DNA of 64,000 nt, from the NCBI RefSeq assembly GCF_002849715.1, contig NZ_CP018863.1:3224001-3288000 (forward strand), in the 5' to 3' direction. This DNA is from Arthrobacter crystallopoietes. GTDB lineage: Bacteria; Actinomycetota; Actinomycetes; Actinomycetales; Micrococcaceae. The number at the start of each line of letters is the position of its first letter. Position 1 is the first letter of the stretch. Positions 13,023-29,802 of the stretch are shown one piece after another. The notes beneath the pieces were generated by a model that searched no databases, was not told where the DNA came from, and was given only the letters and a program-made list of their open reading frames with translations. Made by a program: the position numbers and the translations under genes.

Positions 13023-14576
13023 TTACCCGATGACTGGAGTCTGTGCAGTGACGGGAACATCCGATACGGACTGGACGAATCGCTTGATCCGAGGCTCTGC
13101 GTCCGGACCGAAAAGCGACTCCGGCGGACCCTGCTTCACCACGTTCCCGTCCTCCATGAAAACCACCCAGTCCGCAACGTCGCGGGCTAGCTTCATCTCG
13201 TGTGTCACGATCACCATGGTCATGCCGTCCCGGGCTAGTTCGGCGATGACCGCAAGGACTTCTGCCACTAGTTCAGGGTCCAACGCCGAAGTTGGCTCGT
13301 CGAACAACATGACCGATGGCTTCATGGCCAGAGCGCGGGCGATAGCAATTCTCTGCTGCTGGCCACCCGAGAGCTGGTGCGGGTACTTCTTGGCATGTGC
13401 TGCCATGCCAACCTTGCGGAGAAGCTCCATGCCGAATGTTTCGGCTTCGGCTGCCGTCATGAGGTGCAGTTGGACGGGTGCCAGGGTGACGTTCTCCAGC
13501 ACTGTCTTGTGGGGGAAGAGGTTGAATCTCTGGAACACCATTCCGATGTTGCGGCGCTGCAAAGAAATGTCACGGTCGGAGAGGGCAACAACGCGTCCTT
13601 GGGGACCGGCTTTGCAGCCGACAGTCTGGCCGTTGATTTCGATGCTTCCGCCGTCGGCCGGTTCCAGATGGTTCAAGGTACGTACCAAGGTGGTTTTGCC
13701 GGAACCTGACGGGCCGATAACCACAACCACCTCGCCTGCGTGGACGTCCATGTCCACACCCTTCAAGACCTGGTTCCCGTGGAAAGACTTGGTGACGCCC
13801 TGAGCCTTGACCAGCTTCTCGCCCTCGTGTGGACGGCGCTCGCGACCGCGGACCACCGTTCCCTGGATAGCCACATCGCCATCTCCATGCAGAGCGGGAC
13901 GGCGGCGGTTCACGTCAAGCCTGCGCTCGAGTAGATCCCGCAACCGGTCGAAAATAGTGACCAGCAGGACGTAGAAGATAGCGACGGCGAACAGCGTTTC
14001 CAAGACCATGAAGTTCTGCGTATACAGCCGCTGACCGACAAGAAGGATCTCCTCAAGCGAGATGACACTTGCCAATGAAGTCAGTTTCAGAATTGAGACG
14101 AACTCATTACCCAGGGCAGGCAGCGCGATACGGAATGCCTGCGGGATAACCACCTGGCGCTGCACCCGTCCGTACGGCAGTCCCAGCGCCCGCGCCGCTT
14201 CCCGTTGGTCAGTGGAAACGGACAGCAGGCCACCTCGGTGAATTTCGGCCATGTAGGCCGCTTCGCTGAGGACCAGGGCGATCAACGCGGCATTGAATGA
14301 TGAACCGAGGACCACCTGCGTTGCGGGAAAGACCTGCGGGATGTTGTAGGCGAACACCAACAGGACCAGCAGCGGCAGGCTACGGAACAGCCAGACATAG
14401 GCACCGGCTGCGGTGGAAAGGACCCTGGACCGGGATTCTTTCATTAGCGCCAGGCCGATGCCGGCGATGTTGGCGATGACCCAAGACAGCAGGCTGAGTG
14501 CGACGACGAGGCCGGCTGCCCGCCACAGGTCAGGGTTTGCAAAGAGCGAGAATGTGTATGCCCAGTCGAACGTCAT
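13023..14576 (-). CDS. Polar amino-acid ABC transporter, fused permease-ATPase
   Basis: A 517-residue single-chain fusion. Residues 1-220 form a HisM/GlnP-type permease with five hydrophobic segments and an EAA loop at about 126-147 (EAARALGLPYGR). Residues 255-517 form an ABC ATPase with Walker A GPSGSGKTT (288-296), signature LSGGQQQR, Walker B VMLFDEP and a switch His in VIVTHEM. Most amino-acid importers encode these separately. It starts 2 bp after the binding-protein stop and is the last gene of the M20, binding protein and transporter unit. The likely substrate is a polar nitrogenous acid related to the pathway next door. Confidence 0.88.
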   Translation of the reverse strand: MTFDWAYTFSLFANPDLWRAAGLVVALSLLSWVIANIAGIGLALMKESRSRVLSTAAGAYVWLFRSLPLLVLLVFAYNIPQVFPATQVVLGSSFNAALIALVLSEAAYMAEIHRGGLLSVSTDQREAARALGLPYGRVQRQVVIPQAFRIALPALGNEFVSILKLTSLASVISLEEILLVGQRLYTQNFMVLETLFAVAIFYVLLVTIFDRLRDLLERRLDVNRRRPALHGDGDVAIQGTVVRGRERRPHEGEKLVKAQGVTKSFHGNQVLKGVDMDVHAGEVVVVIGPSGSGKTTLVRTLNHLEPADGGSIEINGQTVGCKAGPQGRVVALSDRDISLQRRNIGMVFQRFNLFPHKTVLENVTLAPVQLHLMTAAEAETFGMELLRKVGMAAHAKKYPHQLSGGQQQRIAIARALAMKPSVMLFDEPTSALDPELVAEVLAVIAELARDGMTMVIVTHEMKLARDVADWVVFMEDGNVVKQGPPESLFGPDAEPRIKRFVQSVSDVPVTAQTPVIG

Positions 14577-14578
14577 GA

Positions 14579-15463
14579 TTATCCCTGCTTCAGCGAATCT
14601 TCGAGGACTTGCGGGTCGACGGGCTCAAGGTTGTATTCCTGGAGGAGCTCATCGTAGGTGCCGGACTCCTTCATGGCTTCGATGCCGGTCTCGAGTGCTT
14701 TCTGCATCTCGCTATTGCCCTTTTGCACGGCCAGCCCGACGGCGATCGGATAGATCAATTCAGTACTGGTGATCGTCGCCCGTTCGTTTGACTTTTCCAC
14801 CACGGTCTTCGCTACTGCGGCATCTGTCATCTGCGCATCCACCTGACCTGCGAGCAGTGCTTGGGTTGCTTCGGGATCCGTCGGGAATTCCTTCACGTTG
14901 ATGACGGGCTTCCCTGCTTCCTTGCACTTGTCACTTTCGGTGGAAGGAAGCAGTTTGGCGATCACTGTGGCCGTGATGACGCTGACCGTCTTGCCACAGA
15001 GATCTTGGGCCGTAACTAGTGGTTCCTCGCCTTGCGGCGCCAGGATGGAATTTCCTGTCTGGAAATACGGCACGAAGTCCACTTCCTTGTCCCGGCCGGC
15101 GGAGATGTACAAGGTGGAGGCGATCACGTCATAGCGATCTGCCTTGATGCCAGCGACGATCTGGGCAAAGCGGGTATCGGTGAATTTGGGCTCCAGCCCC
15201 AGTTCTGCGGACAGTGCGTTCATAAAGTCGACATCAAAGCCGGCCGGTTTGCCGTCTACGAGCATGTCGTAGGGCGGGTAAGTCAGATCGACCCCGACAT
15301 TGAGTTGGCCCGGCGTATTGGTTTCGACGCTGCTGGTGCCGGCCGCGGGCGCTGCACTGTTTTCACCTTCCGCGGCGGTGCTGCCACCACCGCAACCGGA
15401 GACGAGCAGAGCAAGGGTTGTTGCACCACCGAGGAGACCGGCGAGCTTAGCTGACTTTTTCAT
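14579..15463 (-). CDS. Amino-acid ABC transporter substrate-binding lipoprotein
   Basis: A 294-residue family-3 solute-binding protein. It begins with a signal peptide and lipobox (LLVSGC), then a Gly/Ser/Ala-rich linker to about residue 50, then the two-lobed receptor: VGVDLTYPPYDM, AGFDVDFMNAL and DRYDVIASTLYIS. It delivers substrate to the fused transporter encoded 2 bp downstream. Polar amino acids or N-substituted amino acids are typical ligands. It follows the M20 hydrolase by 81 bp, suggesting import and hydrolysis of the same class of compound. Confidence 0.88.
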   Translation of the reverse strand: MKKSAKLAGLLGGATTLALLVSGCGGGSTAAEGENSAAPAAGTSSVETNTPGQLNVGVDLTYPPYDMLVDGKPAGFDVDFMNALSAELGLEPKFTDTRFAQIVAGIKADRYDVIASTLYISAGRDKEVDFVPYFQTGNSILAPQGEEPLVTAQDLCGKTVSVITATVIAKLLPSTESDKCKEAGKPVINVKEFPTDPEATQALLAGQVDAQMTDAAVAKTVVEKSNERATITSTELIYPIAVGLAVQKGNSEMQKALETGIEAMKESGTYDELLQEYNLEPVDPQVLEDSLKQG

Positions 15464-15544
15464 GGAAGAACCTTTCTCGGAACTACTCGGAGATATGCGT
15501 TTCGGTGCTGTTGGTGCTGTTGTCGCCGCGGTGGAGATCTTGCC

Positions 15545-16690
15545 TCAGCGGCACCAGCTGTGGACTGCGTTGTCATAGATTTCTATAATTTGGCGGTACT
15601 TTGCGAGCTCAACCCACTCATCCGCCCAGCTGTAGGGGGGTGTCCCTGGTCCTACATTCACCGAGGGAATTCCGAATTGCTTCAGGGGCACCATGTCCGT
15701 CCAGAACTGGATACCTTGGTAGACCGGCGAGATTCCGGCCTCCTGCACTGCTTTCGCGACAGTCCTGGAGATAGGGGAGTTCTTGTCAATTTCGTAGGGT
15801 AACCGGGGTCCGCTGAGCCAATGGTCACTGAATTCTACGATGGCTTCGATACGAGGATCGGAAGCCTTGAGCTCGCTGACCATCTGCTCAACCTGGATCT
15901 TGACGTCGTATGGATCTTGGGAGGGCAGGAGCCTAATATCGCAGGTCATCTCGCAGCGGTCCGGCACCTGGTTGTGCTTTGTGCCGCCACGGATAGTGCC
16001 GATATTCAGGTTGGGCCCGCCGGGCAGATCCGGATGCGGTTCGTAAGGCATGACTCCTTCGAGCTTCCGCATGGCCGCCAGAATGGGCTCCATGGTTTCA
16101 ATGGCGTTCAGTCCTAGTTCCTTGGCCGAGGTGTGGGCCTGCTTGCCGAATGTCGTGATCTTCAAGTAGGCGGCGCCCCGATGAACCGTGCCAATTGTGT
16201 TGTCCGTCGGCTCACCGCAGATGGCTGCATCAGCGGTGAAGCCAGCCTCCAGTAGGGACCTTGTGCCGACCCCGCCTTCAAAATGGCAGGACACACCTTG
16301 GAATATGACGTCGCCCGCGGGGCGCTCGCCCGATGTAGCGATCCTGCGCATCACCGCCAGCGCTGCGGTCGTCGCTGCTTTCATGTCGGCGATGCCTCCG
16401 CCGTAGATGCGGCCCTCCTCGATACCGGGGTTGAACGGATCCCGCGTCCAATCGGGGGACATTTCATAAATGTCTAAATGGCCGTTGAGGATCAATGACC
16501 TTCCCTTGCCGGTTCCCCGGATGCGGCCGCCAACACTGGGACGCCCCGGCATGGAGTCGACCAGCTCTACGTCGTCGACTCCCCAGGACTCCATCTGGCT
16601 ACCCATGTACTGGGCCAGTTCCTTCTCCTTGCCCCATGTCGAGTCAATGGAGAGTGTGTCGAAAAGCAGCGCGAGCTCGGGATCATTCAT
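15545..16690 (-). CDS. M20 family (ArgE/DapE-type) hydrolase with altered active-site motifs
   Basis: A 381-residue M20-fold protein. Conserved are H71/D73 (GHLD), D102 (GIADMK), E160 (CGEPT) and the dimer-interface GKQAHTS. By eye, the usual catalytic and bridging Glu pair is replaced: the region reads CHFEGGVGT (135-143) where the family has DEE.GG.GT. The C-terminal metal His also appears to be Ser or Trp (GPGTPPYSWADE, about 345-357). It may therefore use different metal chemistry or a different reaction. It is the first gene of the minus-strand transport unit and is divergent from the LysR gene. An amide or amidine substrate is the inference. Confidence 0.78.
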   Translation of the reverse strand: MNDPELALLFDTLSIDSTWGKEKELAQYMGSQMESWGVDDVELVDSMPGRPSVGGRIRGTGKGRSLILNGHLDIYEMSPDWTRDPFNPGIEEGRIYGGGIADMKAATTAALAVMRRIATSGERPAGDVIFQGVSCHFEGGVGTRSLLEAGFTADAAICGEPTDNTIGTVHRGAAYLKITTFGKQAHTSAKELGLNAIETMEPILAAMRKLEGVMPYEPHPDLPGGPNLNIGTIRGGTKHNQVPDRCEMTCDIRLLPSQDPYDVKIQVEQMVSELKASDPRIEAIVEFSDHWLSGPRLPYEIDKNSPISRTVAKAVQEAGISPVYQGIQFWTDMVPLKQFGIPSVNVGPGTPPYSWADEWVELAKYRQIIEIYDNAVHSWCR

Positions 16691-16781: not shown

Positions 16782-16805
16782 GGGTTTCGGTTTAATCGAT
16801 GTCTA
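16782..16805 (+). promoter_or_regulatory. Repeated element, copy 1 (LysR gene start)
   Basis: This 24-bp segment containing gtttcggttt..tcgatg matches 17747-17770 at about 20 of 24 positions. It spans the LysR start codon and lies between the divergent M20 and LysR genes, so it may be an autoregulatory LysR site. Confidence 0.4.
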
Positions 16806-17710
16806 ACGTGAGCTTGAGGCAGCTGGAGTATCTCGTAGCGGCCGCAGAAACCGGCAGCGTGACCGCGGCGGCAACCAAGTTGTATCTATCGCAATCTGCC
16901 GTTTCCACGGCTCTGACCGACCTCGAAGAATCCCTTGGGGTGCAGATATTTGTCCGTCATGCCCGCGGCATGTCGCTCACTAGTGTTGGTCAACAGGTCC
17001 TGGTGGACGCGCGTCGCTTGCTGGCCGGGGTCGAAGATTTGCGCAACTCAGCCAGGGAGACCAGTGAGTCTCTGTCGGGACGGCTTGTTGTCGGGTGTTA
17101 CTCCACTTTGGCACCCATCCTGCTGCCCCGCATCATCGCCGACTTTACTGATTCGCATCCGGGCGTAGATCTCAGCTTTATCGAGGGATCGCATTCGGAG
17201 CTGGAAGAGAAGTTGCGCAGCGGCTCCTTGGATCTCGCGATCCTGTACGACTATGGTTTCAGCGGTCGCCAGCGCCCACGAGACCTAACCAGCACTGTTA
17301 TTGAGTCAACGCCGCCCTACGTAATCTTGCCGGAGCACCATAGGCTGACGCAGCGTCCTAGCATAAGCCTGAGCCAGTTGGTGGAAGAGCCGCTGATCCT
17401 CTTCGATCTTCCTCCCGGCGGCGACTACTTCCTCTCCTTCTTCCAGGATGAAAACTTATCTCCCAACATCCGCTTCCGGACAACCAGTTTCGAAATGGTG
17501 AGGGCCTTGGTTGCCCGTGGTCTTGGTTATTCGATTCTCAGCCAACGCACCAACATCAACATGAGCTATGAAGGCTTGGGATTTGTTGCCCGGGAGCTCG
17601 ATGGCGGGCACGGAGGACTGAACGTCGGCACTGTCCATTTGACGGGCGTGCGGCTCACCCGGAGGGCCACGGCCTTCATCGACCAGTGCAGGCGTTCCCT
17701 TCTGAAATAG
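16799..17710 (+). CDS. LysR-family transcriptional regulator
   Basis: A 303-residue LysR protein. The N-terminal winged helix-turn-helix (about 5-64, with YLSQSAVSTALTDLEESLG) is followed by a periplasmic-binding-protein-like effector domain starting near 90 (GRLVVGCYSTLAP). The ATG sits within the repeated element shared with the next promoter. The gene is divergent from the M20/ABC unit and reads into the flavin reductase and monooxygenase operon 146 bp downstream. It is well placed to control both in response to a pathway intermediate. Confidence 0.88.
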   Translation: MSNVSLRQLEYLVAAAETGSVTAAATKLYLSQSAVSTALTDLEESLGVQIFVRHARGMSLTSVGQQVLVDARRLLAGVEDLRNSARETSESLSGRLVVGCYSTLAPILLPRIIADFTDSHPGVDLSFIEGSHSELEEKLRSGSLDLAILYDYGFSGRQRPRDLTSTVIESTPPYVILPEHHRLTQRPSISLSQLVEEPLILFDLPPGGDYFLSFFQDENLSPNIRFRTTSFEMVRALVARGLGYSILSQRTNINMSYEGLGFVARELDGGHGGLNVGTVHLTGVRLTRRATAFIDQCRRSLLK

Positions 17711-17720
17711 GACACCCACC

Positions 17721-17746: not shown

Positions 17747-17770
17747 AGGTTTCGGTTTTTTCGATGCCTA
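17747..17770 (+). promoter_or_regulatory. Repeated element, copy 2 (monooxygenase operon promoter)
   Basis: About 20 of 24 bases match 16782-16805. It overlaps a short inverted repeat, cgat-gcct-atcg (17762-17773). Sharing the element with the LysR start region suggests both promoters are bound by the same regulator. Confidence 0.4.
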
Positions 17771-17856
17771 TCGTAGAAAACTTCTGTTGGACACATGGCT
17801 CGCAGCCGCCCAATACTGATTGCAGATCACCGCAGCAATCGGAAAAGGAGCATGCG

Positions 17857-18459
17857 ATGTCAACCGAAACCAGAGCAACTTCGGGCCAAACTGCGCCGGC
17901 GAGAGCGTATGATCCGTTCATCGCCGCCATGGGCAAGGTGGCTACGGGAGTCACTGTCGTAGCAACGGACGGGCCGGGTGGACGCTATGCGCAGACCGTG
18001 AGTGCGATGTGCTCGGTTTCCGCCGATCCGCGGCTTGTACTCGTCTGTATCAACACCCGGAGCCCGATCAATAACGCGATCGCCAAGAACCAGGCGTTCA
18101 CCGTAAACGTCCTCGGACGTCAGCACGACCATGTTGCCGATACTTTTGCCGGTCGTCCTTGGCCGGGCAAAGAGCCTTGGGACTTCAGCTGCGGGGAATG
18201 GACCAATGCTCCTTCAGGATCCCCGCGCATTGCCGATGCCGTGGCCAGCTTCGACTGTGAAATCCACGAATCGGTGGAGGCGGGGACCCACCTTGTGTAT
18301 ATCGGCCATGCCCTCGACATTGAATCCCACGGCGGCGATCCACTGATCTACAGCGCTCAGACATATGCGAAACCGCAGCCCGTGCCGCCCTCAATTTTCC
18401 CCGATTATCCAGGATCGGGACCCACCTACGGACCGTACAAGAAAGAGAGCTCCAAATGA
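17857..18459 (+). CDS. Flavin reductase, partner of the HpaB-type monooxygenase
   Basis: A 200-residue flavin-reductase-like split-barrel protein (HpaC/RutF type). The FMN-binding pattern ATGVTVVATDG, TVSAMCSVSADP and NTRSPINNAI is clear. It makes reduced flavin with NAD(P)H for the monooxygenase encoded next. The ATG at 17857 follows aaaaggag; an in-frame ATG at 17764 would add an unlikely extension and lies in the regulatory element. The stop overlaps the monooxygenase start by 4 bp (ATGA), as expected for a two-component system. Confidence 0.88.
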   Translation: MSTETRATSGQTAPARAYDPFIAAMGKVATGVTVVATDGPGGRYAQTVSAMCSVSADPRLVLVCINTRSPINNAIAKNQAFTVNVLGRQHDHVADTFAGRPWPGKEPWDFSCGEWTNAPSGSPRIADAVASFDCEIHESVEAGTHLVYIGHALDIESHGGDPLIYSAQTYAKPQPVPPSIFPDYPGSGPTYGPYKKESSK

Positions 18460-19913
18460 TCCGCACCGGAGATGAATACCGCGACTCCATCCGCGACGGA
18501 CGCCAAGTCTGGGTTGACGGTGAGAAAGTCAGCGATGTTACCTCCCACCCAATGTTCAAGCCGATCGTGGATGTCCGGGCGAGGATCTATGATCTGGCCC
18601 ATGAAGCCGAGACCCAGAAGGTCATGACCTACGCGGATGAGGAAACCGGCGAACTTAATGCGATTGCTAACCGGCTGCCCAAGACGCAGCAGGACTGGAT
18701 CGACAAGCGGGCCGCTGTGGATCTGGTCCAGCGCGAGGCGGGCGGAGTCGTCACGCGTGTCGGCGACGAGACCATTGGTGAAATGTGGTCGCTTTATGAC
18801 GGCCAGGATGTGCTGAACGAGGTGGATCCACGGTTCTCCGAGAACATTCGCCGGCATATCTCTCGCTCCATCAAAGCCGACCCATTCCATGTTTCAGCCA
18901 ACACTGATCCCAAGGGGGACCGTTCCAAGGCCCCGCAGGATCAGGATCCTGACATGCTCCTGCACGTGGTGCGGGAAACCGACAATGGCATCGTGGTTAG
19001 AGGCGCCAAGTACGAGACGGCAGCCGCGTACTCCAACCAGGCCTTCACGAAGCCCACAATTGCCAACTGGGGCAACAGCGAACTCTCCGACTATGCGGTC
19101 GGCTTCGTTATGGACATGGGATCGCCCGGGCTGAAGTTCATCTCCCGAAACGGATTCGCCAGCAAGAGTCCTTCGGCCGACTACCCATTGGCCAACCGCG
19201 TGGATGAGGTTGAATCTTTGGTGGTGTTCGACGACGTCGAAATCCCCTGGGAGGACGTTCTCTTCTACCGCCACACCAAGGCGGCCGGCTTCATCCGGTC
19301 CACCCTGCACCGCTACAGCGCATTCCCGTTCGTGCAGCGAACACTGCATCTGGCCGATTTGATGATCGGCTCGGCGCTGTGGAACGTAAAGCAGACCGGA
19401 TTGGAGAAGCAGCAGGCTGTGCAGGAAAAGCTGGCCCAGCTGGCCTGCTACAGGGAGACTATCAACGCCCACCTGACGGCGGCCATCGCACATGCCGAAC
19501 CGAGTCCGGGCGGACTCCTGATGCCCAACCAGTCGCTGCTCTATACCGGCCGCGTCACCGCGCTGACACAGCTCCCGGCCATGATGCACATTGCCCGTGA
19601 GCTTTGCGGCGGCCAGATCTGCATCACGCCCGACTCGGCAACCTTCAACGACCCGGAAGTCGGATCCTGGCTGGACAAGTTCTACTCAGTGAACGAAAAC
19701 TGGGTGGCTGAGGACCGCCGTCGCCTCCTCGCGTTTGCACGCGACTTGCTCAATAGCGACTACGCTGGCCATCGCCTGACGTTCCAGCTCTTCGCACAGT
19801 CGCCGCCTTTCGCCCAGCTCGGCGCCGTTTACCGTAACTTCGACTGGGATGGCCCGCTCGATCTGGTTAAGTCCGCGGCAGATCTCTCGGAGAAGGTGAA
19901 CGGGTCGCGATGA
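18456..19913 (+). CDS. HpaB-type FADH2-dependent monooxygenase; candidate imidazoleacetate monooxygenase
   Basis: A 485-residue member of the 4-hydroxyphenylacetate 3-hydroxylase large-subunit family, which share the acyl-CoA-dehydrogenase fold. Characteristic stretches include TYADEETGE, FSENIRRHI, the NGIVVRGAKYETAAAY core and FDDVEIPWEDV. Such enzymes take reduced flavin from a separate reductase, here the preceding gene. HpaB acts on phenols, but this operon contains RidA, amidohydrolase and aspartase genes and no aromatic ring-cleavage dioxygenase. An N-heterocycle such as imidazoleacetate is therefore the better guess. Alternatives are a phenol hydroxylase or a pyrrole-carboxylate-type monooxygenase. 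The family is secure; the substrate is inferred. Confidence 0.82.
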   Translation: MIRTGDEYRDSIRDGRQVWVDGEKVSDVTSHPMFKPIVDVRARIYDLAHEAETQKVMTYADEETGELNAIANRLPKTQQDWIDKRAAVDLVQREAGGVVTRVGDETIGEMWSLYDGQDVLNEVDPRFSENIRRHISRSIKADPFHVSANTDPKGDRSKAPQDQDPDMLLHVVRETDNGIVVRGAKYETAAAYSNQAFTKPTIANWGNSELSDYAVGFVMDMGSPGLKFISRNGFASKSPSADYPLANRVDEVESLVVFDDVEIPWEDVLFYRHTKAAGFIRSTLHRYSAFPFVQRTLHLADLMIGSALWNVKQTGLEKQQAVQEKLAQLACYRETINAHLTAAIAHAEPSPGGLLMPNQSLLYTGRVTALTQLPAMMHIARELCGGQICITPDSATFNDPEVGSWLDKFYSVNENWVAEDRRRLLAFARDLLNSDYAGHRLTFQLFAQSPPFAQLGAVYRNFDWDGPLDLVKSAADLSEKVNGSR

Positions 19914-20338
19914 CAGCAACAACTCACACACGGATCCGGCCATTCAACACCAGGGAAACGTACCCCGAGCAAAACCTCGACAATGATTTGTGCCAAGCGG
20001 TGGTCGCCAACGGCGTGGTCTACCTTCGCGGTCAGATCGGGCAGGACTTGGATACGCGCGAATCCGTCGGCGTCGGTGATGTAGAAGCACAGGCGGAGAA
20101 GGCAATGGCCAATATCAAGATGCTCTTGGAAGAGGCCGGCAGCTCCTTGGCGGACATCGTCAAGGTCACCGTCTACTTGACCGACCCCCGATTCAGGGAG
20201 CCTGTCTACCGAACAATGGGCAAATGGCTCCGGGGCGTCCATCCGGTATCTACCGGCCTCGTGGTCAGCGCCCTGGCCCGACCCGAGTGGCTGGTGGAGA
20301 TCGACGCCACCGCCGTTGTCAGCAACAGCCAACTTTAA
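19910..20338 (+). CDS. RidA-family (YjgF/RutC-like) protein
   Basis: A 142-residue RidA-fold protein. Family markers are NGVVYLRGQIGQD, a central helix with AMANIKMLLEEAG, the SLADIVKVTVYLTD strand and a C-terminal RPEWLVEIDATAV containing the position of the substrate-binding Glu. RidA proteins hydrolyse enamines or imines, and RutC serves in pyrimidine ring breakdown. Here it follows a flavin monooxygenase with a 4-bp overlap, which suits hydrolysis of a formimino or imine intermediate after ring oxidation. Confidence 0.87.
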   Translation: MTATTHTRIRPFNTRETYPEQNLDNDLCQAVVANGVVYLRGQIGQDLDTRESVGVGDVEAQAEKAMANIKMLLEEAGSSLADIVKVTVYLTDPRFREPVYRTMGKWLRGVHPVSTGLVVSALARPEWLVEIDATAVVSNSQL

Positions 20339-20357: not shown

Positions 20358-21032
20358 ATGACGTTTTCCCTTGTGGCACGAGATCCCGAATCCGGTGCCT
20401 TCGGCATGGTTGTCACTTCATCAAGTCCTGCTGTGGCCGCGCGTTGCGTGCATCTGCGGGCCGGTATTGGCGGTGCAGCCTCTCAGAACATCACTAATCC
20501 GGAGCTAGGGTCCAAACTGCTGGAATCGCTTGAATCCGGCACAGCCGCCGGGGATGCGATGGCGAAACTGCTCGCAACGGAGCCGGACACCGAGTACCGC
20601 CAGCTGAGCCTGGTTGATAATCAGGGAGGGACGGCAGCCTTCAGCGGAACCAACACCCTTGGCACTCACCGAACTGTAGAAGGTCCGGGCGCGGTGGCTG
20701 CAGGCAACCTGCTCTCCGATGCCGCTGTCGTTGATGCAATCATGGACGCCTACGCCAGTGCCCCGGGTGAGTTTGAAGACCGGCTCCTGGCCGGCCTGCT
20801 CGCTGGTAGGGACGCGGGTGGTGAGGAAGGGCCGGAGCATTCGGCTGGCCTCGTCGTCGTCGATAAAGTTTCCTGGGCCGTCACCGACCTGCGGGTGGAT
20901 TGGGTCGAGGAAGATCCGATTGGCCAACTGGCTGACGTCTGGAAACTATGGCAGCCGCAGAAGCAGCAGTACCTTACACGTGCAGTGCAGCCGAACGCGG
21001 CGCCGAGCTACGGCGTTCCGGGGGACCTGTGA
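20358..21032 (+). CDS. DUF1028 (Ntn-hydrolase-like) protein
   Basis: A 224-residue protein with the DUF1028 opening (MTFSLVARDPESGAFGMVV), an AGIGGAASQN segment and a C-terminal VDWVEEDPIGQLADVW. The family is thought to have an N-terminal-nucleophile-hydrolase-like fold, but no reaction is established. A good site (cctgaggagcc) precedes the ATG. Its place between RidA and an M20 amidohydrolase suggests a hydrolytic step on a cyclic or open-chain amide intermediate, perhaps opening of the oxidised ring. That is inference only. Confidence 0.82.
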   Translation: MTFSLVARDPESGAFGMVVTSSSPAVAARCVHLRAGIGGAASQNITNPELGSKLLESLESGTAAGDAMAKLLATEPDTEYRQLSLVDNQGGTAAFSGTNTLGTHRTVEGPGAVAAGNLLSDAAVVDAIMDAYASAPGEFEDRLLAGLLAGRDAGGEEGPEHSAGLVVVDKVSWAVTDLRVDWVEEDPIGQLADVWKLWQPQKQQYLTRAVQPNAAPSYGVPGDL

Positions 21033-22228
21033 AAGACCTGAAAGACGTTGCGGCCGCGCGGATCGACGGACTTTCCGCGCGGCTGCTCGGCCTCTCGCAC
21101 CGACTGCACGCGAACCCAGAAACTGCATGGCAGGAGAAGCAAGCCGCTGCTTGGATCTCAGCAGAACTCACCGGCGTTGGATATAAGGTGACGCGGGAAC
21201 TGTGCGGCTTCCCGACGGCGTTTGCCGCCACCCTCGGCCGCGGACCCCTGCAACTGGCTATTTGTGCCGAGTACGATGCGTTGCCTGGCCTCGGGCACGC
21301 TTGCGGACACAACATCATCGCCGCTGCTGCCGTTGGTGCCGCGGCGGCGCTGGCCCCCGTGGTAGATGCCCTCGGCGTGACGATCACGGTCATCGGTACA
21401 CCAGCTGAAGAGGGCGGCGGCGGCAAAATCGAGTTGATGGATCGCGGCGCCTTCGACGGACTGCACGCGGCTATGATGGTCCATCCCGGCCCGCTCGATG
21501 TGGCGCGGGCGGAGCCCTTCGCCGTATCGCACAGTAAGATTCGATACCGGGGGAAGGCAACTCATGCGGCGGCCTATCCGGAGCGGGGAGTCAACGCAGC
21601 TGATGCTTTCACCGTGGCACAGGTCGCTATAGGTCTGTTGCGGCAGCAGCTCCAATCCGGCGTACGCGTCCACGGAGTGGTGACGAACGGGGGAGAAGCT
21701 CCGAATGCAATCCCCGAGGTGACTGAGGGCCGCTGGTACGTCCGTGCGGGCACTCTGGCCGACCTGGCGGTGCTGGAAGAACGGGTCCGGAAATGCTTCG
21801 AAGCAGGTGCCCTGTCCACCGGTTGCGACCTGGAGATTGAGGCCGAAAGTCAGCCCTATGCGGAGTTTGCCAATGATGAGGCAATCCTAGACCTCTACGT
21901 AGCCAATGCAACGGCGCTGGGACGTCAGTTCGTCTCCTCCGGTCCGGACATGAGGATGAATAGAGCCTCCACAGATATGGGTAATGTGTCCCAGCGGGTT
22001 CCAGCCATCCACCCCTATATAGGTATTGATTCTCTTCCTGCTGTGAACCATCAAAAGGAGTTCGCCGCGCATTGCATTACCGCGGCAGCGGACAAGGCTG
22101 TCATGGACGCGGCGAAGGCCATGGCCTTCACCTGTATTGACATCGCCCGGAGCAGTCCGCTGCGCTCGCGTTTGATCGGGAATACGGAACAGGTAGATCC
22201 TCTAAAGGAGACCGTCGATGTCCACTAA
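21029..22228 (+). CDS. M20 amidohydrolase (aminobenzoyl-glutamate/IAA-amide hydrolase type)
   Basis: A 399-residue M20D-type amidohydrolase with an intact metal site. Visible motifs are AEYDALPGLGHACGHN (CGHN at 92-95), PAEEGGGGK (125-133), the GKATHAA dimer-domain motif and a late His in HQKEFAAHC. The GTG start at 21029 overlaps the previous stop (GTGA) after gggga; an ATG 81 bp upstream would overlap far into that gene. The enzyme should cleave an N-acyl amino acid. With aspartase encoded next, N-formyl- or N-carbamoyl-aspartate is the attractive substrate. Confidence 0.85.
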   Translation: MKDLKDVAAARIDGLSARLLGLSHRLHANPETAWQEKQAAAWISAELTGVGYKVTRELCGFPTAFAATLGRGPLQLAICAEYDALPGLGHACGHNIIAAAAVGAAAALAPVVDALGVTITVIGTPAEEGGGGKIELMDRGAFDGLHAAMMVHPGPLDVARAEPFAVSHSKIRYRGKATHAAAYPERGVNAADAFTVAQVAIGLLRQQLQSGVRVHGVVTNGGEAPNAIPEVTEGRWYVRAGTLADLAVLEERVRKCFEAGALSTGCDLEIEAESQPYAEFANDEAILDLYVANATALGRQFVSSGPDMRMNRASTDMGNVSQRVPAIHPYIGIDSLPAVNHQKEFAAHCITAAADKAVMDAAKAMAFTCIDIARSSPLRSRLIGNTEQVDPLKETVDVH

Positions 22229-23654
22229 TATGCGCCGCGAGCACGACCTGATCGGCTGGCTGGACGTCCCAGTCGACGCGTATTACGGCGTACATACGGC
22301 CCGCGCTCTGATGAACTTTCCTATGACCGGTGTACCTATCGGCATCCACGGCCACTTTGTGAACGCTTTGGCTGCGGTCAAGGAAGCTGCAGCGGCCACT
22401 AACAAGGATCTCGGCCTGCTGGACGCGGTCCGCGCGGATGCCATCATCGCGGCATGCCGGTTGATTCAGACGGGGAAGCTGCACGATCAGTTTGTGGTGG
22501 ATTCGCTCCAGGGCGGCGCCGGTACCTCCACGAACATGAACGCCAACGAAGTCATAGCAAACCTCGCATTGGAAATACTTGGCAGCCAGCGGGGCGACTA
22601 CAGCATCCTGCACCCGCTGGACCATGTGAACCTGGGGCAGAGTACCAACGATGTTTATCCCACAGCACTGCGGATTGGTCTTCACGGGGCGGCCGCGGAT
22701 TTACTCACGGCAATGGGCGGTCTTCGCGATTCCTTCGATCGAAAGGCGGCGGAGTTCAAGGAAAACCTCAAGATGGGCCGGACCCAGCTCCAAGACGCAG
22801 TGCCGATGACGCTGGGGCAGGAATTCAAGACGTTCTCAGTCATGCTCTCCGAAGATGAACTCCGCTTAGGAGAGGTGATGGCGCTGATCCGGGAAGTGAA
22901 TCTGGGCGGCACCGCTATCGGAACGGGCCTGAACTCCCACGGCGAATATACTCAGCGGGCCTGCACCCATCTGGCCCATATCAGCGGAGTCCCGGTAACA
23001 CCGGCCGGTGACCTGATCGAAGCGACCCAGGACGTCGGAGCATTGGTCCAGCTTTCGAGCGTACTGAAGAGAATCGCCGTCAAAATCTCCAAGGTCGCCC
23101 ACGATCTGCGCCTGCTCTCGTCCGGACCACGGGCTGGCCTGGGGGAAATAAATCTGCCCGCAGTTCAGGCAGGCTCAAGCATAATGCCGGGGAAAGTTAA
23201 TCCGGTCATTCCGGAAGTTGTGAACCAGGTTGCGTACTCCGCGATCGGCAATGATCTCGTTGTCACAATGGCAGCCGAAGCCGGCCAGCTGCAGCTAAAT
23301 GCGTTCGAACCTGTCATGGCCCGCGCACTCTTCGAGAGCCTGGGCGAGCTCAGGGCAGCCTGCACCGTACTGGCTGAGCGTTGCGTCGATGGCATTACTG
23401 CGGATCCCGCCAAACTGCTCGCCACCGTTGAACAATCCATCGGTCTAGTGACTGCTCTGGTTCCCTACATCGGGTACTTGAGCGCCACTGAAGTCGCCCA
23501 AGAAGCAATGGCTTCCGGTGGCAGTGTAGTGGAAGTTGTCCGGGCTCGAGGACTGATGTCAGATGAGGCTTTGGACAGCGTGCTCGGTTCCCCGCACCTG
23601 CTCACAGCGCCGGGGCTTCGGACTCTCGGCGCACCGCTGGCCAGTATAGTGTGA
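22218..23654 (+). CDS. aspA: Aspartate ammonia-lyase
   Basis: A 478-residue fumarase/aspartase-superfamily enzyme. It has GTSTNMNANEV (102-112), QSTNDVYPTA (141-150), GTAIGTGLN and the signature GSSIMPGKVNP (319-329). The early NFPMTG and DAYYGVHT segments are typical of aspartases rather than class II fumarases. It converts L-aspartate to fumarate and ammonia. The start overlaps the amidohydrolase gene by 11 bp, so it is the last step of the operon and channels the pathway product into the TCA cycle. Confidence 0.87.
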   Translation: MSTNMRREHDLIGWLDVPVDAYYGVHTARALMNFPMTGVPIGIHGHFVNALAAVKEAAAATNKDLGLLDAVRADAIIAACRLIQTGKLHDQFVVDSLQGGAGTSTNMNANEVIANLALEILGSQRGDYSILHPLDHVNLGQSTNDVYPTALRIGLHGAAADLLTAMGGLRDSFDRKAAEFKENLKMGRTQLQDAVPMTLGQEFKTFSVMLSEDELRLGEVMALIREVNLGGTAIGTGLNSHGEYTQRACTHLAHISGVPVTPAGDLIEATQDVGALVQLSSVLKRIAVKISKVAHDLRLLSSGPRAGLGEINLPAVQAGSSIMPGKVNPVIPEVVNQVAYSAIGNDLVVTMAAEAGQLQLNAFEPVMARALFESLGELRAACTVLAERCVDGITADPAKLLATVEQSIGLVTALVPYIGYLSATEVAQEAMASGGSVVEVVRARGLMSDEALDSVLGSPHLLTAPGLRTLGAPLASIV

Positions 23655-23759: not shown

Positions 23760-24353
23760 CTACAGCGCCGCGCCCGTGACCGCCCTTGCATAGGAAAGCA
23801 GTATTGTCTTAGCGTGTTCTGCGGTGAGACTGTCAGTGCCGGCCAGCACTTGCAACCCCAGGCCGTCCTCGAGGGCGACAAAGGATCTTGCCAGTTCGTT
23901 AGTGGGACCGGACAAGTTGAACGCCTGTGTCTTGCTGCCGTGTTCCAGTACTTGCTCGTACAGAGAGACTTCGTCCCTGTACAGGTTGCTCATCAGCTGT
24001 TCGTGCTGGAGCTGTCTCGTGGCGCTGATGCTTAGCTCGTACAGCACGCTGGAAAGCACATCCCCGCGGCCTTGGGGCAGGCCGCTGGCGATGAGCTCCG
24101 TCAGTGCAGCTTCGGGTGCGCGATGGCGCTGGATCGTGCGAAGTCTATTCCAATAGTACTTTTCCGACGCTTTGCGGTGGGTCGCAGCAACCAAGCCGTC
24201 CAGATCCGGGTAGTAATAACTGACTAGCCGCTCGGACACACCCGCCTCTGCCGCGATGTCCTTAATTCTCAGATTCGTTAGGCCATTGCGGGCGATTGTA
24301 GCCACCGAGGCGTCAACGAGCGCATCCATGCGTTTCTCCCTGTCGCGCGCCAC
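23760..24353 (-). CDS. TetR-family regulator of the amine oxidation genes
   Basis: A 197-residue TetR protein. The helix-turn-helix (about 17-60) reads IKDIAAEAGVSERLVSYYYPDLDGL, and the rest is a helical effector domain. The GTG at 24353 after ggaggagtgcaaa is preferred to an ATG 57 bp upstream. It is divergent from the aldehyde dehydrogenase gene. Two TTGCG-N6-CGCAA palindromes, one in this intergenic gap and one before the copper amine oxidase, are its likely operators. The amine or its aldehyde is the probable inducer. Confidence 0.85.
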   Translation of the reverse strand: MARDREKRMDALVDASVATIARNGLTNLRIKDIAAEAGVSERLVSYYYPDLDGLVAATHRKASEKYYWNRLRTIQRHRAPEAALTELIASGLPQGRGDVLSSVLYELSISATRQLQHEQLMSNLYRDEVSLYEQVLEHGSKTQAFNLSGPTNELARSFVALEDGLGLQVLAGTDSLTAEHAKTILLSYARAVTGAAL

Positions 24354-24483
24354 TTTGCACTCCTCCCGGCCGGTATTCAGAAGCCTATGCCCTGTCCAGG
24401 CGGACCCCACGGTTATTTCAATATATAGCTTCGGTTAATCAGTGCTGACAACTCTCGCCCTAGTGACTCAGTTCACAGTATTC

Positions 24484-24517: not shown

Positions 24518-26008
24518 ATGTCGCAAAATACCCATCAAGAGTGGTTGGACCTGGCTCAAACCCTGCCGGTTCCGCAATATGCATTCATTGACGGCCAACA
24601 GGCCAAGGCTGAATCAGGTGCCACCTTTACATCCATAAACCCTGCTACGGGCAAGCCCTTGGCGGATGTGGTCTCCTGCGATGCCGCAGACGTGAATCGC
24701 GCGACTGCTGCTGCCAGGAGGTCTTTTGAAGATCGCCGCTGGACAGGCCAGCCGATCGCGGTCCGCAAGCGCGTCATGCAGAACATCGCCGAAGGACTGC
24801 GGACGCATGCAGCCGAACTGGCCTTGTTGGACTCGCTGGATATGGGGAAGCGGGTCGTTGACGCCTACGAACTCGACGTGCCGTTCTCGGCATCGCTGTT
24901 CGATTTCTACGGCGAGGCCCTAGACAAGCTCAACGGAGAGGCCGTGGCAACGGACGACGGCGTTCACGCCACCATCACAAAAGAACCGTTGGGTGTAGTG
25001 GGCGCCGTCGTGCCATGGAACTACCCAGTGGATATGGCGGCCTGGAAGCTCGCGCCGGCCATCGCCGCGGGCAACAGCGTAGTCCTCAAGCCGGCCGAAC
25101 AGTCACCTCTGTCAGCTATCCGTTTGGCTGAAATCTTTGCCGAAGCGGGCCTTCCGGACGGCGTCGTCAACGTGGTGCCCGGATTTGGCGAGACCGCGGG
25201 GCAAGCCATCGGCCGGCACATGGACATCGACACACTCGTGTTTACCGGTTCAACCGGGGTCGGCAAACTGTTCCAGCGGTATGCGGGCGAATCGAACATG
25301 AAGCAGGTCTGGCTTGAGTGTGGCGGCAAGAGTGCCAACATCGTCTTTGCCGACACCGAAGACTTGCAGAAGGCAGCCGAATCGGCCGCGTTTGACGTGT
25401 TCTTTAATCAAGGGGAGGTGTGTTCCTCGCATTCACGGGTTCTGGTGCAGCGCGGAATCCACCAGGAGTTCGTCGCGCTCTTGCGCGATATCTCTGAGCG
25501 GTACCAGCCCGGGGATCCGCTCGACCCGGCATCGGGCATGGGTGCCATGGTAAGTGCGGAGCACGCGGACATGGTGGAGGGTTTTATCGCCCGCGCGCGG
25601 CAGGAAGCCGACCTCGCAGCCGGCGGGCGCAGGCTAAGACTAGGCGACAGCGATTGCTTCATTCAGCCCACTGTGGTGGACAACGTGCACCCGGACTCCG
25701 AACTCGGCCAGAACGAAGTGTTTGGTCCGGTTCTGGCGGTCATTCCGTTCGACACCGAAGAGGACGCGGTCAGAATTGCCAACTCGACGCAGTTTGGCCT
25801 GGCCGCATCAGTCTGGACTTCAAACATCTCACGCGCACACAGGGTGGCCAGCCGATTGGTTGCAGGCACGGTATCGGTCAATGCCACGGACGCGTTCGGA
25901 GCCCAAACTCCCTTTGGCGGCTTCAAATCCTCTGGCTACGGCCGTGACCTCTCGCTGCATGCCCTGGACAAGTACCAGGGATTCAAGACGACGTGGATTT
26001 CTTACTGA
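24518..26008 (+). CDS. Aldehyde dehydrogenase (PuuC/betaine-aldehyde type)
   Basis: A 496-residue NAD(P)-dependent aldehyde dehydrogenase with N168 (PWNYP), GSTGVGK (245-250 region), general base E267 (LECGGKS) and nucleophile C302 (GEVCSSHSR). It would oxidise the aldehyde produced by the copper amine oxidase at 27802 to a carboxylic acid, for example imidazoleacetaldehyde to imidazoleacetate. The shared operator-like sequence supports that link. The ribosome site is tataggag. The permease gene 96 bp downstream is probably cotranscribed. The exact aldehyde is inferred. Confidence 0.88.
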   Translation: MSQNTHQEWLDLAQTLPVPQYAFIDGQQAKAESGATFTSINPATGKPLADVVSCDAADVNRATAAARRSFEDRRWTGQPIAVRKRVMQNIAEGLRTHAAELALLDSLDMGKRVVDAYELDVPFSASLFDFYGEALDKLNGEAVATDDGVHATITKEPLGVVGAVVPWNYPVDMAAWKLAPAIAAGNSVVLKPAEQSPLSAIRLAEIFAEAGLPDGVVNVVPGFGETAGQAIGRHMDIDTLVFTGSTGVGKLFQRYAGESNMKQVWLECGGKSANIVFADTEDLQKAAESAAFDVFFNQGEVCSSHSRVLVQRGIHQEFVALLRDISERYQPGDPLDPASGMGAMVSAEHADMVEGFIARARQEADLAAGGRRLRLGDSDCFIQPTVVDNVHPDSELGQNEVFGPVLAVIPFDTEEDAVRIANSTQFGLAASVWTSNISRAHRVASRLVAGTVSVNATDAFGAQTPFGGFKSSGYGRDLSLHALDKYQGFKTTWISY

Positions 26009-26104
26009 TAAAACGACCGTTTGCCGAGCCGCTTCAATGCGGCCTGTGGCAGGACCAAGCAAAGAGGCCTGGCCCTTCATCCACGCTTTTCGAAAGGTTC
26101 AGCA

Positions 26105-27637
26105 ATGTCATCGATAAACACCAAATATATGGACGAGCAGCAAGGGAAGCTTCACCGTACGCTTGGCCGCTTGGACATCGTTCTGTTGACGATCGCGGCG
26201 GTTATTTCGATCGAGATTCTCGGTCAACTGTCTTCGTACGGAGGGGAGACCTTTACATGGCTGGTCATTCTGGTCATCACTTTCCTGATTCCCTACGCAC
26301 TCTTGTTCTCCGAGACCGGCAGTGCATTCACAGAAGAGGGCGGTTGCTACAACTGGGTCAAGCGCGCTTTCGGCCGCAGAGTCGCATCAATCTCTACGGT
26401 CTTCTATTGGGTTACGACGCCCGTCTGGATCGGCGGTTCAATGGCGTTCCTGGCAGGGGAGACGTTCCACCAGTTCTTGCTGCCCCTCGATCTGGCTGGT
26501 CCGTCCGGCTACCTGTTTTATCTGGCCTTCATCTGGACCACGGTGATTTCGGCCATTGCAAGCCTCCGTTGGGCTAAGTGGCTACCGAACTCCGGGGCTG
26601 TGGCCAAGGTGGGGCTGTTGTTCCTGTTCGTGGTAACCACGATTATCTACGGGTTCCAGCACGGTTTCAGCGGTATATCCGCTGCCGACCTCAGCCCGAC
26701 ACTGCTCGGTCTCTTCGGCGTAGCACCGCTACTGCTGTTCGGATTTCTCGGCTTTGAAGCGGCCAACGGCGCCGCCGGCGAAATGAAGAACCCGCAAAAA
26801 GACGTACCCAAGGGACTGACACAATCCACGTTTATCGCGGCCTGCTGCTACCTGCTACCCATCTTGGCCATCCTGCTGGTGATTCCCAAGGACGAGATCA
26901 CGGGTGTTTCGGGCTTGATGGAAGCAGTCGGCGAAGTCTTTGTTGTTTACGGACCGGCCGCGCCGGTCATGATGACCGTAGCGGCAGCGCTTTTCGTTCA
27001 TGTACTGGTCACCCAAGGCGCCGCGTGGATGATCGTCAGTGACCGCGTCCAAGGTATCGCGGCGGCAGACGGTTCATTCTTCGGCGGCTTCTTCGGCAAA
27101 TTTCATCGGATTCTCGGCACTCCGATCCGTATCAACCTTCTTTCCGGCGTTCTCGCCAGCGTTTTCTTGATCGCGTCCCTGACCCTGATCGAGGGTTCTT
27201 CCGCAGCGGTGTTCGGGGTAGTGCTGACGATCTCCATCAGTACGTACCTGATCTCGTACCTTGCCATCATTCCTGCGGCCATAAAGCTGCGCCTATCGGA
27301 CACCCGGACCCACCGGCCGTTCCGCTTACCAGGTGGAAACCGCGTTTTCGTTATCCTCGGTGTGATCTGTACGGCTTGGGTGGCTCTGGGATCGTGGGTT
27401 GCTGTCTTCCCCGGCACCCTCGAAGCCGTCTTTGGGCTGGACTACCCGTTCGTCGAGATCTGGGGCGTGGAGCAGCAGGTCTACACAACGTTTACGCTTG
27501 GCACTCTCGGATTCCTGGCAGCGCTGGGCTTGGCCGGTTACATATTTGGCGCCAAATTGCGAGTGCCGTCGGCTCCGGAGGATCGCGAGGAACCCGATGG
27601 CGAATCTGTTCAAGACCGCACCTCGGTTCTGGACTAA
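26105..27637 (+). CDS. APC-family amino acid/amine permease
   Basis: A 510-residue membrane protein with about 12-13 hydrophobic segments and the amino acid-polyamine-organocation pattern (RTLGRLDIVLLTIAAV, ALLFSETGSAFTEEGG, FLGFEAANGAAGEMKNPQKDVPKGL). The start at 26105 follows cgaaaggttcagca; an in-frame ATG at 26021 lacks such a site. The C-terminal 30 residues are charged and cytoplasmic. It sits between the aldehyde dehydrogenase and the amine oxidase and most likely imports the primary amine that feeds them. Confidence 0.88.
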   Translation: MSSINTKYMDEQQGKLHRTLGRLDIVLLTIAAVISIEILGQLSSYGGETFTWLVILVITFLIPYALLFSETGSAFTEEGGCYNWVKRAFGRRVASISTVFYWVTTPVWIGGSMAFLAGETFHQFLLPLDLAGPSGYLFYLAFIWTTVISAIASLRWAKWLPNSGAVAKVGLLFLFVVTTIIYGFQHGFSGISAADLSPTLLGLFGVAPLLLFGFLGFEAANGAAGEMKNPQKDVPKGLTQSTFIAACCYLLPILAILLVIPKDEITGVSGLMEAVGEVFVVYGPAAPVMMTVAAALFVHVLVTQGAAWMIVSDRVQGIAAADGSFFGGFFGKFHRILGTPIRINLLSGVLASVFLIASLTLIEGSSAAVFGVVLTISISTYLISYLAIIPAAIKLRLSDTRTHRPFRLPGGNRVFVILGVICTAWVALGSWVAVFPGTLEAVFGLDYPFVEIWGVEQQVYTTFTLGTLGFLAALGLAGYIFGAKLRVPSAPEDREEPDGESVQDRTSVLD

Positions 27638-27734
27638 CACCCGCCATTAATGGAGGCGTCCAGTTATCCGAACGACTCCATCGCATGTTTCCACAGCACC
27701 AGCCATCGCTATTTATAGTCCCCTTCGTTTATTC

Positions 27735-27750: not shown

Positions 27751-27801
27751 AAATTTATTCTGATTCGGCCGCGCCGGCCGGTTCTATTTGAAAGGCAAAC
27801 C

Positions 27802-29802
27802 ATGCAGACTACCCAAACTGCTCCCTCAAGCCTGGGCGTCACCCATCCTCTGGACATGCTGACTCCGCAGGAGATCAGCGCTGCTCGCCAGGTTCTGGTG
27901 GATGCAGGAATGGTCAGCGAGAACACCCGCTTTCCTCGAGTTCTTCCTGTGGAGGCCGACAAGCAACTGCTGGAAACCTATGTGGATGGCGACGACGACT
28001 ACGACCGGTCGGTCCTCGTTACGCTGATGGATATCACGACGGCGGAGGCCGCGGAAGCCACCGTCTCGGTTACAAAGGGCGAAGTTACTGCCTTCAGGAC
28101 AATGCCGAATACCGAGCATCCTTATGGTCAGCCGCAATACCTCTTCGAGGAGTATGAGCGGGCGCAGGAAATCGCGAAGTCGGATCCGCGCTGGCAGGCA
28201 GCCATGCTCCGTCGTGGGATCACAGACACCACCAACACTTACCTATCCCCGCTGGCACCTGGATTCTTCCCGCGGGAAGGCGAGACCGGAAAAAGAATGA
28301 TTCGGTCTTTGACCTTCCACCGGAACTTTGAGGGAGACAACGCTTGGGCGCACCCGGTCGAGGGCCTCATTTGCCACATTGACCTGACTGCCGGTGTCGT
28401 TGCCCGGGTCGAGGACGACTATGCCGAAACGGAACCGGTACCGATCCCGATGGAAACTCGGCACTACACACCAGAGCATGTTGGTCCCGCCCGGACCACT
28501 CTTAAGCCTTTGGAGATTACCCAGCCTGAAGGCCCGTCCTTTAAGGTCAACGGAAATCACGTGGAGTGGGAGAACTGGAAACTCCGCGTGGGGTTCAACG
28601 CTCAGGACGGCCTCGTGTTGAATCAGGTCAGCTTCCGGGACGGCGACGAGGACCGCATGGTGCTGCACCGGGCATCTGTACCGGAGATGGTGGTCCCGTA
28701 TGGCGATACATCCAACACCCGATTCTGGATCAGCTATTTCGACGCGGGGGAGTACCTCCTCGGCAAGAACGCGAACTCGCTCAAGCTAGGGTGTGACTGC
28801 CTGGGCGTGATCGAGTATTTCGATGCCTTCGTCGCAGGGGACGACGGACGACCTGTCCAGATTCCAAACGCCGTCTGCATGCACGAGGAGGACTACGGCG
28901 TTCTCTGGAAGCACACCGAATTCGGCGAAGCCCCGCAGGTGCGCCGGTCACGCCGGTTGGTCCTCTCCTACTTCGCAACTATCGGGAACTACGACTACGG
29001 CTTCTTCTGGTACTTCTACCTTGACGGCTCCATCCAGATGGAGGCCAAAGCCACGGGAATCGTCTACACCGGAGCCACTTTTCCCGGCCAGCCGAACCGG
29101 TACGCCCCCGAAATCGCCCCCGGGGTCATTGCGCCTGTCCACCAGCACATTTTCTGCGCGCGGCTTGACGTAGCGATCGATGGCAACGCCAATTCGGTCG
29201 AGGAGCAAAACATACTGGGTATCCCGATGGGGGAGGAAAATCCGCACGGAAACGCATTCACCTGGGAACGCACACCGTTGAACCGCGAACTGGATGCTGT
29301 CCGTGATGCCAACGCTGAGACGGGCAGGAGTTGGTTCATTACTAACCCGAACCGGAGGAACTACGTTGGCCAACCCACCGGCTACCAACTGATTCCGATG
29401 GCCGGTCCGCGGCTTATGGCGCAAGAAGGTTCCTCCGCGTGGAAGCGTGCCCAGTTCGCAACTCACCATTTCTGGGCCACAAAGTACGACCCGGCAGAGC
29501 GCTTTCCGGCCGGCGATTACCCCAATCAGCACGCCGGAGACGGCATCGGGGAATGGGTGAAGGCCAACCGAGCCATCGAAAACGAAGATATTGTCGTCTG
29601 GCATTCCTTCGGCCCCACCCACATCCCGAGGACCGAGGATTGGCCGATTATGCCCGTCGACTACAGCGGTTTCTGGTTCAAGCCACACGGTTTCCTAGAC
29701 CAGAACCCCGCTATGGACTTGCCGGACTGGAGTTCCTACAAGGCGGCCGCTGAAGCGCAGGCACACCAGGACGATGCTGCCGGCAATTGCTGCCGGAACT
29801 GA
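27802..29802 (+). CDS. Copper-containing primary amine oxidase; candidate histamine oxidase
   Basis: A 666-residue quinoprotein amine oxidase of the Arthrobacter type without a signal peptide. The topaquinone precursor is Y397 in GNYDYG. The catalytic base is D314 (SYFDAGEY), and the copper ligands are H447 and H449 (VHQHIF) with H607 (GPTHIPR). It oxidises a primary amine to the aldehyde with release of ammonia and hydrogen peroxide. Arthrobacter species have histamine, phenylethylamine and tyramine oxidases of this family. Histamine is favoured here by the downstream-type enzymes at 17.8-23.7 kb. The C-terminus (GNCCRN) has an unusual Cys pair. The class is certain; the substrate is inferred. 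Confidence 0.9.
   Translation: MQTTQTAPSSLGVTHPLDMLTPQEISAARQVLVDAGMVSENTRFPRVLPVEADKQLLETYVDGDDDYDRSVLVTLMDITTAEAAEATVSVTKGEVTAFRTMPNTEHPYGQPQYLFEEYERAQEIAKSDPRWQAAMLRRGITDTTNTYLSPLAPGFFPREGETGKRMIRSLTFHRNFEGDNAWAHPVEGLICHIDLTAGVVARVEDDYAETEPVPIPMETRHYTPEHVGPARTTLKPLEITQPEGPSFKVNGNHVEWENWKLRVGFNAQDGLVLNQVSFRDGDEDRMVLHRASVPEMVVPYGDTSNTRFWISYFDAGEYLLGKNANSLKLGCDCLGVIEYFDAFVAGDDGRPVQIPNAVCMHEEDYGVLWKHTEFGEAPQVRRSRRLVLSYFATIGNYDYGFFWYFYLDGSIQMEAKATGIVYTGATFPGQPNRYAPEIAPGVIAPVHQHIFCARLDVAIDGNANSVEEQNILGIPMGEENPHGNAFTWERTPLNRELDAVRDANAETGRSWFITNPNRRNYVGQPTGYQLIPMAGPRLMAQEGSSAWKRAQFATHHFWATKYDPAERFPAGDYPNQHAGDGIGEWVKANRAIENEDIVVWHSFGPTHIPRTEDWPIMPVDYSGFWFKPHGFLDQNPAMDLPDWSSYKAAAEAQAHQDDAAGNCCRN

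Follow-up and report, generated by a model that had tools for sequence, protein, structure and literature searches.

Genes at the locus

We analyzed a 64,000-nucleotide stretch of Arthrobacter crystallopoietes, NZ_CP018863.1 (hereafter the window; all positions count from its start), in which a preliminary description had proposed a route from histamine through imidazoleacetate to fumarate that employs a monooxygenase of the HpaB type. Every gene named there was recovered as an open frame matching the expected family in Pfam and NCBIfam profile searches. The core consists of six plus-strand genes: a flavin reductase (FlR; 17764..18459, Flavin_Reduct); its partner, an HpaB-fold oxygenase proposed to act as an imidazoleacetate monooxygenase in place of HinF (18456..19913, HpaB_N and HpaB); a RidA protein of the HinL type (19910..20338, Ribonuc_L-PSP); a DUF1028 protein (20358..21032, Pfam), which by operon order takes the HinH position and is the single match to its family in the genome; the amidohydrolase M20b in the HinG position (21029..22228, Peptidase_M20); and an aspartate ammonia-lyase of the HinI type (AspA; 22218..23654, NCBIfam PRK12273, 693 bits against a cut-off of 510). 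Adjacent genes either share 4-11 bases or are separated by 19, which suggests that the six genes form a single operon. The M20 amidohydrolase, previously described as intact, is indeed present, but its start is most likely the GTG at 21029, overlapping the DUF1028 stop, rather than 20948.

A LysR-type regulator, HinK-type by position (16799..17710, plus strand, Pfam), precedes the operon. Beyond a divergent TetR-type regulator (23760..24410, minus strand, TetR_N; the same protein cluster occurs in 12 compared neighborhoods, the window counted), the operon is followed by a plus-strand amine module that comprises an aldehyde dehydrogenase of the HinD type (ALDH; 24518..26008, Aldedh), an APC-type permease (26021..27637, AA_permease_2; the TTG start of the listed frame is uncertain) and a copper amine oxidase (CuAO; 27802..29802, Cu_amine_oxid).

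We propose that the operon and the amine module constitute a hin-type histamine/imidazoleacetate cluster in which the single-component HinF, of the flavin monooxygenase (FMO) type, would have been replaced non-homologously by FlR and the HpaB-fold oxygenase. The comparative observations behind this proposal are the gene content, the match to hinFLHG, hinI and hinD, the exchange of hinF and HpaB in place, and the altered HpaB site.

Relation to the hin pathway

In PAO1, the operon hinFLHG (PA5393-PA5390) is strongly induced by histamine, and HinK is a LysR regulator responding to imidazoleacetate (PMC8231116); the same source repeats a 2018 statement that sequenced Gram-positives lack hin genes. 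Homologues of hin genes have been reported from Brevibacterium, with HinF described as an FAD monooxygenase, HinL as an enamine deaminase, HinH and HinG as amidases and HinI as an aspartase (PMC6467879).

HinF-like homologues of 59-73% identity were found in 39 of 59 Pseudomonas genomes, and the order HinF-RidA-DUF1028-M20 was seen in 11 of the 16 fetched Pseudomonas regions, the other 5 carrying a rearranged or partial set. Read from this gene order, DUF1028 would correspond to HinH and the M20 protein to HinG. The idea that RidA and DUF1028 represent a solution different from the described pathway is not supported: RidA is the HinL of that pathway, and the place of HinH is taken by DUF1028. 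As in the hin cluster, RidA, DUF1028, M20, aspartase and ALDH are all present together in the window. A search of the window's genome for HinF at E 1e-40 gave no hit; with HpaB and FlR found instead, we class the window as a variant of the hin cluster and not as the same cluster.

Micrococcales hinF loci were reached through the CuAO, which matched in 20 of 396 genomes (E 1e-200). In 8 of these 20 it is clustered with RidA, DUF1028, M20b and ALDH; six of these eight clusters include the permease too. An FMO-like protein, here called HinF, is present in 6 of the 8 clusters; the stretches of the remaining two genomes (G227 and G486) ended before any HinF. Window-type HpaB had no match in any of the eight genomes (E 1e-30). 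The RidA of the window is 79-88% identical to the HinF-adjacent RidA of Micrococcales genomes, except in G248 (70%), and its AspA is 55% identical to the HinF-adjacent AspA of loci L123, L124, L126 and L127. One genome, G013, has the order CuAO-permease-LysR-HinF-RidA-DUF1028-M20b-AspA.

Locus counts are based on 27 HinF loci in which a cluster is apparent; excluded were L116, L118, L119, L129 and L130 (genomes already represented), L121, L125 and L128 (from G227 and G486), and L132 and L137-L140, in which a HinF homologue occurs but no RidA reaches 50% identity (the contig of L139 measures 4.4 kb, and the HinF of L140 is fragmented). Once L132 and L137-L140 are counted, RidA of at least 50% identity stands beside HinF in 26 of 32 loci; the later L198-L200 all have RidA. 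An Amidohydro_3 protein lies near two of the hinF clusters (L117:1179-2813 and L198:15198-16718) and could represent an additional ring-opening or amidohydrolase step.

Active site of the HpaB-type oxygenase

Against the curated 4-hydroxyphenylacetate family TIGR02309, the window HpaB scored 222 bits, below the cut-off of 480 (480.2). A control HpaB from locus L105 scored 584.8 bits. In FAD-dependent HpaB, the conserved catalytic residues are Arg100, Tyr104 and His142 (review PMC10537072). At these sites the window protein has R101, E105 and S147, so that the Arg is kept and two of the three phenol-site residues are replaced, while the control keeps Tyr and His. All 83 sequences of this HpaB group share the residues of the window protein, with Glu in place of Tyr104 and Ser in place of His142 throughout. 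The failure at the cut-off and the Tyr and His replacements make a phenol substrate unlikely, and we rejected identity with a phenol-type HpaBC on these two grounds. The group, named 4-hydroxyphenylacetate hydroxylase in databases, is probably misnamed and would oxidize imidazoles instead. An HpaB of Arthrobacter sulfonylureivorans is 96% identical to that of the window. By title and abstract start, none of the open-license PMC matches listed describes an HpaB-type or two-component imidazoleacetate oxygenase.

Exchange of HinF and HpaB

In the Pseudomonas loci L034 and L047, HpaB occupies the place that HinF has in the hinF operons L175 and L179, and the reductase gene adjoins it in divergent orientation. 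The surrounding proteins of the two kinds of operon are 87-88% (RidA), 78-81% (DUF1028), 70-72% (M20), 87-89% (LysR), 76-84% (ALDH) and 78-87% (aminotransferase) identical, and HinF was found neither in the L034 and L047 loci nor elsewhere in those two genomes. In these two Pseudomonas genomes hinF and HpaB have thus been exchanged in place.

Quick trees of the accompanying proteins were built from rows with an identity of at least 50% (RidA), 40% (DUF1028 and the M20 type c6) or 50% (ALDH) at 80% coverage. On the RidA tree, which rests on few columns, the oxygenase label switches 7 times, with at least 4 switches forced by strong branches. The corresponding figures are 5 switches and at least 4 forced for DUF1028, 4 and at least 2 for ALDH, and 2 and 1 for M20c6. 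With RidA as the starting point, 5 of 59 relatives of the window have a RidA of at least 80% identity, and all five carry an adjacent HpaB (the window's own genome and G009) or HinF (G006, G013 and G046), plus DUF1028 and M20b.

Distribution and neighbors of HpaB

From a scan of genome contigs for HpaB we kept the best 80 of 447 candidate stretches (74-92% identity), which come from Actinobacteria, Proteobacteria and one Thermomicrobiales metagenome-assembled genome; two further Pseudomonas loci brought the set to 82. Within it, flavin reductase was found in 65 loci, RidA (at least 50% identity) in 70, DUF1028 (at least 40%) in 70 and LysR in 63, followed by M20b in 30, the other M20 type (c6, ArgE-like) in 20, aspartase in 11, class III aminotransferase in 17, a window-type permease in 12, an NCS1 permease in 13, a histamine dehydrogenase homologue in 9 and CuAO in 2. 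Because several contigs are short, the true numbers may be higher. Window-type ALDH (at least 50%) occurs in 17 of the 82 HpaB loci and in 9 of the 27 HinF loci. The association of HpaB, RidA and DUF1028 is not due to chance. HpaB is uncommon among the window's own relatives: two of 59 genomes carry it, and one of these is that of the window.

Ten proteins of the histamine dehydrogenase family lie near HpaB, distributed over nine loci (four from Rhodococcus, five proteobacterial). A total of 36 family hits were spread over 21 of 80 genomes, and 10 of them, from 9 genomes, fall within about 10 kb of HpaB; under even random placement such proximity has a probability of about 1e-16, or 2e-9 without the Rhodococcus hits. 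The homologue in L008, the only one compared in this way, scored 1034 (3k30) and 874 bits against the solved histamine dehydrogenases and 539 bits against trimethylamine dehydrogenase. We also compared two sites, a Gln and an Asp, that we presume to have roles in histamine dehydrogenase. Both residues are present in 10 of 10 HpaB-adjacent homologues; control homologues elsewhere share the Asp in 9 of 9 and the Gln in 5 of 9, so the two sites discriminate only in part. In locus L140 (G122:C2), a histamine dehydrogenase homologue adjoins a HinF split into two fragments, with residual pieces of RidA and DUF1028, which looks like a decayed hinF cluster; the same genome has an HpaB operon with histamine dehydrogenase.

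Proposed pathway

In the pathway that we propose, the permease would import histamine, which CuAO and ALDH would convert to imidazole-4-acetate. FlR would supply reduced flavin, with which HpaB would hydroxylate C5 of the imidazole to give the imidazolone, whose opening would yield N-formimino-aspartate. RidA would remove the imine nitrogen by imine hydrolysis, DUF1028 and M20b would carry out the amide hydrolyses, in a division of labor that cannot be read from sequence, and aspartase would turn aspartate into fumarate. All of these reactions, the sequence in which RidA, DUF1028 and M20 would act and the choice of histamine as substrate are inferred, the steps from the imidazole hydroxylation onward from known chemistry. 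At the sequence level there is good support for the imidazoleacetate-to-fumarate part of the earlier proposal and its two-component HpaB-type oxygenase, namely the hinF exchange in two Pseudomonas, the histamine dehydrogenase neighbors and the loss of two of three phenol-site residues.

That HpaB and FlR perform the HinF step on imidazoleacetate seems to us quite probable. Histamine is likely the amine substrate of the cluster, and we hold CuAO as the first step with less confidence than the role of HpaB and FlR. HpaB might also be more than a stand-in for HinF, with a different or wider range of imidazole acids or a ring oxygenation that opens directly to an N-formyl or N-formimino amino acid. 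This we regard as speculative and rather improbable; if true, it would explain the genomes that keep both oxygenases and would establish, within the HpaB family of Actinobacteria and Proteobacteria, a branch that attacks imidazoles.

Alternative explanations

A number of observations weigh against reading HpaB simply as a replacement of HinF. Oxygenase labels are strongly clustered on the trees (7 changes for RidA versus 23 in shuffles), and the DUF1028 of the window falls in a nine-row set with HpaB only. RidA of 50% identity is missing in 12 of the 82 HpaB loci; in L005, L006, L007, L012 and L017 there is no RidA hit between HpaB and DUF1028, with the remaining operon present. HinF homologues also occur in 10 of 81 distinct HpaB genomes (nine at 63-74% identity, the tenth as fragments at 56-66%) and in 2 of the 4 HpaB-bearing Pseudomonas among the 398 Pseudomonas genomes searched for HpaB, and in Arthrobacter SDTb3-6 a single contig carries both operons. 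More distant HinF relatives (37-47% identity) are found in many of the HpaB genomes. Strict mutual exclusion of HinF and HpaB, which we had considered, is contradicted by this co-occurrence. The genomes with both oxygenases leave room for a parallel operon that degrades a close relative of imidazoleacetate, such as an N-methylated imidazoleacetate or another imidazole acid, with the same downstream chemistry. Ten Burkholderiaceae loci (L032, L035-L038, L041, L043-L045 and L049) fit this view: a glycine-betaine-monooxygenase-like Rieske protein, polyamine-type ABC genes and a PhyH protein lie upstream of the HpaB operon, no known amine-deaminating gene could be assigned among the neighbors, and another imidazole substrate may be involved there. 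We nevertheless consider a related substrate unlikely for the window: in L034 and L047 the hin operon around HpaB is otherwise ordinary, its LysR is 87-89% identical to that of hinF operons and the genome has no HinF, and histamine dehydrogenase homologues adjoin HpaB in nine genomes.

The remaining points against concern the amine oxidase. Our CuAO tree took in AGAO, a phenylethylamine oxidase, and the CuAOs of hinF clusters. The window CuAO, which shares 46% identity with AGAO and 49-51% with the hinF-cluster CuAOs, forms a separate, starred branch and groups with neither. AGAO itself groups with the CuAO of a hinF cluster (L133), which makes CuAO specificity unreadable from the tree. Moreover, the L105 CuAO, 67% identical to that of the window, adjoins a genuine phenol-type HpaB. 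Two separate modules could then be envisaged, the HpaB operon for imidazoleacetate and CuAO, ALDH and permease for another amine (such as tyramine or phenylethylamine), as five Arthrobacter-type loci (L002, L004-L006 and L017) with operon and ABC transporter and no CuAO hit within the stretch examined might suggest. Such a division has a modest chance of being right: the ALDH and permease types recur with both HinF and HpaB operons, and CuAO also belongs to the hin-type clusters of eight Micrococcales genomes. A hydroxylase of 4-hydroxyphenylacetate or another phenol amid unrelated neighbors, for which the Pfam HpaB match and the database name speak, is very improbable in view of the TIGR02309 score and the invariant Glu and Ser; nor is there, as had been noted before against simple tyramine/4-hydroxyphenylacetate catabolism, any ring-cleavage dioxygenase among the neighboring genes examined in the window.

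Other genes in the window

Divergent from the operon, on the minus strand, lie a polar amino acid-type ABC transporter with permease and ATPase in one protein (13023..14576, BPD_transp_1 and ABC_tran; a relative at least 50% identical is present in 8 of 82 HpaB loci), a family 3 solute-binding protein (14579..15463, SBP_bac_3) and the ArgE/DapE-like hydrolase M20a (15545..16690, Peptidase_M20 and NCBIfam). These genes are retained in Arthrobacter-type HpaB loci even without a visible CuAO and perhaps serve uptake of imidazoleacetate or an acylated imidazole. The transporter, binding protein and second M20 at 13023-16690 are peripheral to the cluster, and the pathway first proposed makes no use of them. 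A TRAP-type (DctP) binding protein and an Ldh_2-family dehydrogenase at 8796-10984 (minus strand) form a separate, catabolic-looking pair. After CuAO, at 29886-31159, come an open reading frame of 204 residues without Pfam match and, on the opposite strand, a DUF3237 gene.

Significance

If correct, this assignment gives a protein group now named 4-hydroxyphenylacetate hydroxylase a concrete, different and readily testable function, and offers a case of non-homologous, apparently repeated replacement of one pathway step. The known hin pathway would exist in a variant with an exchanged oxygenase, spread over two phyla and more. DUF1028, for which an open-license PMC literature search found no paper, gains a pathway, as it accompanies RidA and M20 beside both oxygenases in the hinH position. 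Pyrrole, pyridine and homarine routes were considered as well; none of the papers listed for homarine describes such a cluster. Histamine removal is also relevant to food and gut work.

Comparison with known systems

With 4-hydroxyphenylacetate 3-monooxygenase HpaB/HpaC, the window oxygenase shares the fold family, the two-component design and Arg100, but it lies under the curated cut-off and has Glu and Ser for Tyr104 and His142. Compared with the histamine dehydrogenase systems (3k30, 6de6), whose homologues adjoin HpaB operons in Rhodococcus and Proteobacteria, the window has CuAO at that place. Relative to the hin genes of Pseudomonas putida U and PAO1 (hinABCD, hinFLHG, hinIJ and hinK), it has RidA, DUF1028 and M20 in the hinL, hinH and hinG positions, an aspartase as hinI, an ALDH as hinD, a LysR regulator and an APC-type permease; in contrast, FlR and HpaB stand for hinF, CuAO stands for the hinC aminotransferase, and M20b and the Pseudomonas M20 belong to different M20 types. 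The putative Brevibacterium hin cluster with a histamine oxidase homologue (PMC6467879) differs in having HinF where the window has HpaB and a CuAO of another branch (about 49-50% identical), whereas permease (54-55%, six clusters), ALDH (50-52%), RidA (83-85%), DUF1028 (49-51%), M20b (57-59%, or 61% over a partial hit) and AspA (55%) are common to both.

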